Positions 56,328 through 58,727 of a stretch of DNA of 64,000 nucleotides are shown one piece after another. The notes under the pieces were generated by a model, which worked only from the letters and a program-made list of their open reading frames with translations, made no database searches and was not told the DNA's origin. The first letter of the stretch is position 1. Every line of letters starts with the position of its first letter. The position numbers were made by a program, and so were the translations under genes. Origin of the DNA: Burkholderiaceae bacterium (lineage in GTDB: Bacteria; Pseudomonadota; Gammaproteobacteria; Burkholderiales; Burkholderiaceae_C); the NCBI GenBank assembly GCA_017856435.1, contig JAFMFB010000010.1, forward strand, positions 1-64,000, written 5' to 3'.

Positions 56328-57941
56328 TCAGTGACTGATGCGACCAAAGTTGGTGCGCAGGGGGTCAACACCTCCACCCTGGCCGCCCCCCTTGGGTTGG
56401 CCAGACCGGTTTGCACCACGCCGACGACGGTTGGACTGGCTTAGGGAATCAGTGCCAGTGCGCAACGGATCGGGTTGCGCTGAGTGACCGCTGCCTCGTG
56501 GCCCTTGGGAGCGACTTTCCTGGGTTCGACCCGACTGGCCATGACGACCCTCAGAAGCTGGACGCCCATTGTTTTGGCCAGCAGGCCTGCGCTTGTCGCT
56601 CGTACCTGCACGACCTGAATCACCACGGTTGCTTGCGCCACGCTGAGGCTGGTTGGCCTTGTTGTCGCGAATGCGCTGCATCATTTCTGTACGCGCAGCC
56701 TTGGCTGCTGCGGCCATCACCTCGCGGCTGGGGGGTTTGCCCGCACCGCCCCAGATGGTCTGACGGCCCATGGCAATGGGCTCAGCGCGCTCATCGGCTT
56801 CCGGACCAAATCCTTCCACAGGGACGACCGGGATGCTTTGCTTAGTGAAACGCTCGATTTCTGCCATGAATCCCTGCTCGTCAAGACAAACCAGGTTGAC
56901 AGCCTGACCCTCACGACCGGCACGGCCAGTACGACCGATGCGGTGAACATAGTCTTCCGGAACATTCGGGATCTCATAGTTCACCACATGCGGTAGGTCA
57001 TCGATATCGATACCGCGTGCAGCGATGTCGGTAGCCACCAGGGCACGAATTTCACCGCTCTTGAAGCCAGCCAGGGCCTGGGTGCGAGCCGCCTGGCTCT
57101 TGTTGCCATGCAGGGCCATGGCGGTGATGCCATTTTTCTCCAGGTAATCAGCCACGTTGTTGGCGCCAAACTTGGTACGGGTAAAGACCAGCACCTGGCT
57201 CCAGTTGTGCTGGTTGATGATGTGGGCGAGCAGGGCTTTCTTTTTGGAGCGTCCAACCGGATGGATGCTTTGCTCAATGCGCTGCACGGTGGTGTTGCGC
57301 GGCGTGACCTGGACGGTTTGCGGATTCTTGAGCAAGCCGTGGGCCAGATCACGAATCTCGTCGCTGAAGGTGGCGGAAAACAGCAAGCTTTGCTTATCGC
57401 GCGGTAGCAGTGCCAGCACTTTCTTCACGTCATGGATGAAACCCATGTCCAGCATGCGGTCAGCCTCATCGAGCACCAGTACCTGCACGGTCGACAGGTC
57501 CAGAAAACCTTGTTGTTGCAGGTCGAGCAGGCGGCCAGGTGTGGCCACCAGAATATCGATGCCTCGTTTGATTCGATCGATCTGGGGATTCATACCGACG
57601 CCACCAAAAATCACGGTCGAGGCCAGTTGCAGGTATTTGCCGTAGGTGCGAACGGACTCTTCCACCTGGGCGGCTAGTTCCCGCGTGGGGGTGAGCACCA
57701 GGGCTCGGATGCCGGTGCCGCCCCACTTGTTCTGCGCGCTACGGCTCATGACCAGGCGGTGCAGCAGGGGCAGGGTGAAGGCAGCGGTCTTGCCGGTACC
57801 AGTCTGGGCGCCACCCAGCAGGTCGTGACCGTCCAGAATCACCGGTATGGACTGGGCCTGAATTGGCGTTGGGGTTTGGTAGCCCTGCTCGCGCACGGCC
57901 TTCTGAATGGCCGGAGCCAGCTTGAGGTCTTCAAAGTTCAT
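56328..57941 (-). CDS. rhlE: DEAD-box ATP-dependent RNA helicase RhlE
   Basis: Q-motif TPIQAQSIPVI, AQTGTGKTAAFTLPLL, VLDEADRMLDMGF, SATFS, HRIGRTGRAGREG; basic Gly/Arg/Gln-rich C-terminus. Confidence 0.93.
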   Translation of the reverse strand: MNFEDLKLAPAIQKAVREQGYQTPTPIQAQSIPVILDGHDLLGGAQTGTGKTAAFTLPLLHRLVMSRSAQNKWGGTGIRALVLTPTRELAAQVEESVRTYGKYLQLASTVIFGGVGMNPQIDRIKRGIDILVATPGRLLDLQQQGFLDLSTVQVLVLDEADRMLDMGFIHDVKKVLALLPRDKQSLLFSATFSDEIRDLAHGLLKNPQTVQVTPRNTTVQRIEQSIHPVGRSKKKALLAHIINQHNWSQVLVFTRTKFGANNVADYLEKNGITAMALHGNKSQAARTQALAGFKSGEIRALVATDIAARGIDIDDLPHVVNYEIPNVPEDYVHRIGRTGRAGREGQAVNLVCLDEQGFMAEIERFTKQSIPVVPVEGFGPEADERAEPIAMGRQTIWGGAGKPPSREVMAAAAKAARTEMMQRIRDNKANQPQRGASNRGDSGRAGTSDKRRPAGQNNGRPASEGRHGQSGRTQESRSQGPRGSGHSAQPDPLRTGTDSLSQSNRRRRGANRSGQPKGGGQGGGVDPLRTNFGRISH

Positions 57942-58100
57942 GTGATGAGCGCCCATCCTGGGCGCATGGGGAATCGGTCGTGTCAACTTTCTCAACAGAG
58001 AAAGTTGATCAGTCAAGAACCGATGAATAAAAAAAGGAACCAACCGCAACGGTTGGGACCTCGGCAGAGCGCCGATGTCAGACCAACTGAACTGTCTGAC
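57942..58100 (-). promoter_or_regulatory. Structured rhlE 5' leader with consecutive hairpins and an internal intrinsic-terminator-like element
   Basis: Inverted repeats at 58077-58100, 58061-58075, 58040-58056 (followed on the reverse strand by TTCCTTTTTTT), 57983-58008 and 57949-57965; GATAAT -10 candidate at 58107-58112 (reverse strand). Confidence 0.6.
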
Positions 58101-58142
58101 AACTGCATTATCTCATGACTTGTGCTCCGCTACACTGAGTCC

Positions 58143-58727
58143 ATGACCAGCACCACCATGGCCTACGATGCCCACGAGGACCGCGTCTGGTTGTCATTCA
58201 ACGATGACAGCCCACGCCTGTGGCTCACCCGCCGCCTGATCGAGCAACTGTTCAGTCATGGTTTGTCCTTGCTGGAAAAAACCACAGGAGGCGAACAGGG
58301 CGGTGCCGATGCGGCGACACGGATCGCCCTGGAGCATCAGTTGGCACTCAATGAATTGCTTCCTGGTGAGCAGAAATTACCCATCAAGATGGGGCAGGAA
58401 AGTCCACAGCAGACCCAGCGTGAAACCCATGTCCTGTGCCGCGGTATCACCATGAATTTCAGTGATCGAAATTGCGAGCTGATCTTTTTGCTCCCTGAGG
58501 GACAACGCAAGCTGGCCATGTCGCGTGTGATGATGCACCGTTGGCTGCATGGGCTCAATCTGGCCGTACGCCAGGCCCGCTGGGCGCTTACCAGAGTGCC
58601 GCAGTGGCTCAATCAAAGTCAGCTCCCTGCAGCCATCCAGGCGCTGACCGAAATGCCGATCCCCCGGGAACTTGATGAGGATGACGATCCGCCAGCGCCC
58701 ACCGGCCCGGCTGATCCGCAACCCTGA
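58143..58727 (+). CDS. Conserved-looking hypothetical protein
   Basis: ORF between divergent rhlE and ettA; start ATG at 58143; no domain recognised by eye. Confidence 0.6.
   Translation: MTSTTMAYDAHEDRVWLSFNDDSPRLWLTRRLIEQLFSHGLSLLEKTTGGEQGGADAATRIALEHQLALNELLPGEQKLPIKMGQESPQQTQRETHVLCRGITMNFSDRNCELIFLLPEGQRKLAMSRVMMHRWLHGLNLAVRQARWALTRVPQWLNQSQLPAAIQALTEMPIPRELDEDDDPPAPTGPADPQP

Follow-up and report, generated by a model that had tools for sequence, protein, structure and literature searches.

The rhlE locus and its leader

The window, a 64,000-nucleotide stretch of DNA from a Burkholderiaceae bacterium, carries the rhlE gene on its reverse strand. The best NCBIfam match of the gene product is PRK10590 RhlE with 611 bits, under the 743-bit cut-off. 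The sequence between rhlE and a divergent gene on the forward strand (58122-58727) occurs as a single copy in the genome. We take this region, some 160 nt in length, to be the leader at the 5' end of the rhlE mRNA; it is predicted to fold into five hairpins (P1 to P5) with a pseudoknot between P1 and P4. The first-pass annotation had listed five hairpins, a GATAAT element and a T-run here, and all of them were found on the reverse strand where it had placed them. The features of the locus are as follows.

56328-57941, reverse strand: rhlE, DEAD-box RNA helicase RhlE of 537 amino acids, with Pfam domains DEAD and Helicase_C
58107-58112, reverse strand: -10 element GATAAT of the putative rhlE promoter, extended form TGAGATAAT; consensus kept in relatives
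58077-58100, reverse strand: P1 hairpin, GTCAGAC/GTCTGAC with loop AGTTCAGTTG; predicted fold with double-sided changes
58085-58090, reverse strand: UCAGUU of the P1 loop, 5' strand of the pseudoknot, facing GACUGA at 58009-58014
58061-58075, reverse strand: P2 hairpin, TCGGC-GCTCT-GCCGA; 93.6% of alignment cells paired, with A-U/G-C covariation
58036-58060, reverse strand: P3, variable hairpin, CCAACCG-TTG-CGGTTGG closed by GG/CC; the terminator stem of the first-pass annotation
58029-58035, reverse strand: T7 run 3' of P3, which makes P3 terminator-like in this species
57973-58024, reverse strand: P4, with a lower stem (58018-58024/57973-57979) and a long upper stem (57998-58008/57983-57993)
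58009-58014, reverse strand: 3' strand of the pseudoknot, GACUGA, within the P4 internal loop
57949-57965, reverse strand: P5 hairpin, GCGCCC-AGGAT-GGGCGC, with 99% of cells paired; its loop and 3' arm contain the likely Shine-Dalgarno sequence

The probable start of rhlE transcription was placed from the -10 element; among 144 rhlE leaders from Burkholderiaceae, 130 have this element in the form TGnGAyAAT. The predicted folding energy of the 162-nt leader is -65.5 kcal/mol as compared to -44.3 kcal/mol (sd 4.0) for dinucleotide shuffles (z = -5.25), and none of the 200 shuffled sequences was as stable. The first 73 nt of the leader on their own gave a z of -4.0. The divergent gene beside the rhlE promoter matches neither Pfam nor NCBIfam and has no assigned function. 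Only L041 had a relative of it at 72% identity; distant ones (34-40% identity) were present in a few genera, one of which (L036) also adjoins rhlE.

Conservation, covariation and the pseudoknot

Within the genus, the same leader, altered at many bases, precedes the genes of RhlE orthologues. A covariance model (R1) built from 18 of these leaders matched 161 of 301 Burkholderiaceae genomes and 83 of 141 genera (E <= 1), normally once per genome, and all 130 matches that were fetched lie directly upstream of rhlE. Among 100 leaders, 89.7% of the alignment cells were paired, compared to 78.4% with shuffled partners and 26-40% with slid strands. The lower stem of P4 was paired in 92-93% of cells and its upper stem in 86-88%. 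Changes on both sides were seen in 29 of 39 base pairs, including all 6 modelled pairs of P1. Because MAFFT misplaced the 5' arm of P1, the final counts were taken from a model-fitted alignment, which favours the modelled pairs; the pseudoknot, being absent from the model, gains nothing from this bias.

The pseudoknot and the conservation across relatives are additions to the first-pass annotation. The loop of P1 (YCAGUY) pairs with GACUGR on the 5' side of the P4 internal loop, and 95.3% of the cells are paired; in the window UCAGUU (58090-58085) faces GACUGA (58014-58009). In an all-pairs covariation scan, for which the alignment was fitted without the pseudoknot in the model, the outer pair of the pseudoknot was the best covarying pair of columns outside the model. 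Its states are C-G in 70 leaders, U-A in 15 and U-G in 9, and an inner G-C pair has changed to A-U on both sides in two relatives. The longest helix between the P1 loop and P4 averaged 5.94 bp in 100 relatives versus 3.49 bp after shuffling. On the RhlE protein tree the outer pair underwent about 17 state changes, and about 3.5 independent contrasts were with the pairing and 0 against it, too few for significance in a sign test.

A second model, R2, was applied to the wider order, and its best matches in other families, likewise in front of rhlE, were limited to the P4 region. Leaders of other Burkholderiales families keep P1, P4 and the pseudoknot, which reaches 7-8 bp in some members (CCAGUCU(U) with (A)AGACUGG); P2, P3 and P5 are not recognisable there. 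With the core model R3, 57 of 250 genomes from the order had a match at E <= 0.1, as did 12 of 274 from the class. Of the R3 loci that were fetched, the 35 that pass E <= 1e-8, with E values of 4.1e-9 or lower, all precede rhlE, and the seven loci without rhlE have E values of 0.036 or higher. A reduced core thus precedes rhlE in other Burkholderiales families and in a few other Gammaproteobacteria. In a phylum-wide sample of 249 genomes, matches outside the class were found only at E values of 0.01-0.04. Four rhlE-like genes of other families (L261, L262, L263 and L266) have a different, conserved-looking leader, CCUGAACCGGUU...GCAGGC directly 5' of the Shine-Dalgarno sequence, which may be either a far-diverged form of the present one or another type of leader.

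The earlier suggestion of a multi-hairpin rhlE leader under selection is borne out by the strong covariation in relatives, on which that suggestion had been staked, and by the position of the 130 family matches and the 35 R3 matches at rhlE. The element has a structure backed by covariation and occupies a constant place in the 5' UTR of a single gene, as expected of a conserved cis-regulatory leader RNA. From this conservation and covariation, we regard it as almost certainly a structured cis-regulatory element specific to rhlE. Genomes that the R1 model did not match often have divergent versions of the leader. A few (L244, L249 and L252) have weak or no recognisable copies, suggesting that leader control may be dispensable in places. 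The leader looks deleted in L244 (genome G054), in which a -10-like sequence, GAGACAAT, is found 6 nt upstream of the predicted ATG; rhlE mRNA would there be made as if leaderless, a natural case of leader deletion.

Two other explanations of the conserved sequence were considered and rejected. The 11-bp palindrome in P4 could be a DNA operator, but relatives vary it with compensation. An RNA reading is better because these compensatory changes occur in a hairpin of variable length. P4 also resembles AACAGGCUGAUACC of 23S rRNA, but mimicry of ribosomal RNA was ruled out since the leaders share no more 9-mers with 23S and 16S rRNA than their own reverse complements do.

The first-pass annotation had also proposed an Rfam search. 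When Rfam 15 was searched under permissive filters with the window and 31 loci with relatives, the best matches were unrelated and far below gathering scores, so no known family explains the leader. In its compactness, its pseudoknot and its conserved loop sequences the fold is similar to many aptamers, which raises the idea of a metabolite-binding riboswitch with rhlE as its sole target. This is very unlikely in our view, because every fetched strong match precedes the same helicase gene with no metabolic genes among them, and no Rfam riboswitch was matched. The strict linkage to one helicase gene favours autogenous control over a metabolite switch.

Terminator-like sites and the hairpin of the ribosome-binding region

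An intrinsic terminator within the leader had been proposed earlier at P3. Our terminator scan found CCAACCG-UUG-CGGUUGG with the T-run as one of 2 sites in the scanned kilobase, where 0.8 were expected from shuffles. The T7 run (58035-58029) begins 4 nt past the stem as first annotated, or at the hairpin base if the outer GG/CC pairs are counted, and the terminator shape at P3 has an energy of -14.8 kcal/mol. The proposal therefore holds for the window, which has a good terminator shape with T7, but not as a conserved feature: the U-run is missing in the nearest relative (L021/L041), and P3 is the most variable element, differing strongly in sequence and length between relatives. The antiterminator pairing of GTTGG with CCAAC proposed along with it was at chance level (longest helix between the P1 loop and the P2-P4 linker 4.35 bp versus 4.53 bp shuffled in 100 relatives).

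Terminator-like sites were present in 44 of 211 rhlE leaders, compared to 11-14 in shuffled leaders. Some Burkholderiaceae have them after P3 and some other families after P4; in six related genomes they follow P1 directly. Because the sites are at different hairpins by clade, attenuation may have arisen more than once. In the six genomes of the P1 type (L246, L247, L248, L251, L255 and L257), a U-rich run of up to U8 immediately follows P1 upstream of rhlE. It is about 35 nt past the -10 element, which suggests a promoter-proximal terminator, and the P1 loop is still complementary to a downstream AAGACUG. A stop after P1 precedes the pseudoknot partner, thus the partner cannot serve as an antiterminator in this clade.

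A transcription attenuator, in which P3 with its U-run stops transcription before rhlE unless an alternative pairing forms, would be in keeping with the well-shaped hairpin of the window, with six leaders of one clade in which P1 is itself immediately followed by the U-run and with the excess of terminator-like sites over shuffled leaders. It would require a U-run that the nearest relative and most leaders do not have, and an antiterminator for which the proposed pairing is at chance level and, in the clade with the terminator after P1, the pseudoknot partner is transcribed past the stop. We consider this reading improbable, and a conserved attenuator of the intrinsic-terminator type was rejected, as the sites occur at different hairpins in 44 of 211 leaders with no conserved antiterminator pairing. 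By these comparisons attenuation is not the conserved function of the leader, but in the window P3 and its U-run may provide an additional stop to transcription that is specific to the lineage.

A promoter, a hairpin and a U-run in this geometry, seen in the window (58112-58028) and in six genomes of another clade, could also produce a short RNA (P1 with its U-tail, or P1 to P3 here) which acts in trans, for example by pairing with P4 of full-length rhlE mRNA. Since the U-run is not conserved elsewhere, we hold this as a general explanation to be highly improbable; an RNA of about 45 nt acting in trans from the leaders with a U-rich run after P1 is conceivable.

A hairpin at the P5 position, in the ribosome-binding region, was found in 135 of 144 Burkholderiaceae leaders, and 96 of them have GGA, AGG or GAG in its loop. 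The best match of the window to the anti-Shine-Dalgarno sequence (CAGGAUGGGCGCUCA) runs through P5. Because P5 occupies the ribosome-binding region with the likely Shine-Dalgarno sequence in its loop and arm, translational control is likely in this family. The cores of most families outside Burkholderiaceae do not have a P5 bearing the Shine-Dalgarno sequence, suggesting that the output step may vary, and many of the other-family leaders have an open GGAG or GGAA near the start codon. A nine-codon open reading frame (ATG CGC CCA ... ACA TGA, 57938-57967, reverse strand) runs through P5 and shares nucleotides with the start codon of rhlE. It was rejected as a short leader peptide since its ATG is not conserved in relatives.

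Proposed regulation of rhlE and comparison with known leaders

We give slightly better than an even chance to a cis-acting leader that sets rhlE expression after transcription starts, most likely via autoregulation by RhlE. The P1-P5 fold with the P1-P4 pseudoknot would hold the likely Shine-Dalgarno sequence in P5. It would then set the amount of RhlE made after initiation through ribosome access at P5, the lifetime of the mRNA, or both. The factor sensed would most likely be RhlE, with active helicase remodelling the pseudoknot and lowering its own expression. Taken together, a fold which tunes rhlE output after initiation, with RhlE itself most likely sensed and repressing its own expression, is in our analysis about an even proposition.

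Features of other helicase genes bear on this model. In Caulobacter crescentus, the 5' UTR of rhlE is 186 nt long, predicted to be structured and required for full expression, and expression from rhlE promoter fusions rises when rhlE is mutated (PMC5472812). Similar to the leader described here, it is thus long with a predicted structure, and the rise of the fusions in the mutant suggests self-control. Because the Caulobacter UTR raised expression, the sign of the feedback may differ in our case. No homologous RNA was recognised with R3 in the 249-genome sample of the phylum, where matches outside the class were confined to E values of 0.01-0.04. Neither a pseudoknot nor such conservation is described for the Caulobacter UTR in the available part of that report (PMC5472812).

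RhlE is cold-induced in Caulobacter (PMC5472812), and helicase expression can be regulated by temperature, as for crhR of Synechocystis (PMC3485376). A cold-responsive RNA switch, in which a temperature-dependent refolding of the leader, independent of RhlE, tunes the translation or the stability of rhlE mRNA, would fit with both. We find it doubtful, as specific pairs and the pseudoknot are conserved and not melting behaviour alone. Synechocystis CrhR is also an RNA helicase that autoregulates, partly after transcription (PMC3485376). Its gene is of another helicase lineage and phylum, and no leader motif is shown in common with rhlE.

The leader of the RNase E gene rne mediates autogenous control of rne. 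It resembles the rhlE leader as a structured leader before a gene of RNA metabolism, and rne leaders have Rfam entries such as rne-II (PMC2864571). The gene and the fold are different, and no Rfam rne family matched our leader. Within the same order, the sucA (RF01070) and SAH (RF01057) motifs are conserved structured leaders found in B. cenocepacia (PMC4603805). They belong to other genes and other Rfam models, neither of which matches the rhlE leader. No rhlE leader motif was found in the openly licensed literature searched, including two large surveys of bacterial structured RNAs, although an earlier description elsewhere is possible. The rhlE leader is apparently an undescribed RNA class of a familiar kind, in which a structured leader controls its own downstream gene.

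With RhlE as the factor sensed, we tentatively suggest that the helicase gauges its own activity on the pseudoknot of its own mRNA. The P1-P4 pairing would be the substrate sensor, to which different lineages attached different outputs. As joint parts of the same tentative proposal, these outputs may be the P5 hairpin holding the Shine-Dalgarno sequence in Burkholderiaceae, the terminator after P1 in one clade and the terminator after P3 in this species.

A widespread leader, backed by covariation and tied to one DEAD-box helicase across Burkholderiales, makes feedback by an RNA helicase directly testable, as the pseudoknot as putative sensor, the two strands that form it and the natural variants have all been identified. 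If our postulation is true, a helicase would join the proteins that control their own mRNA through a dedicated RNA fold.
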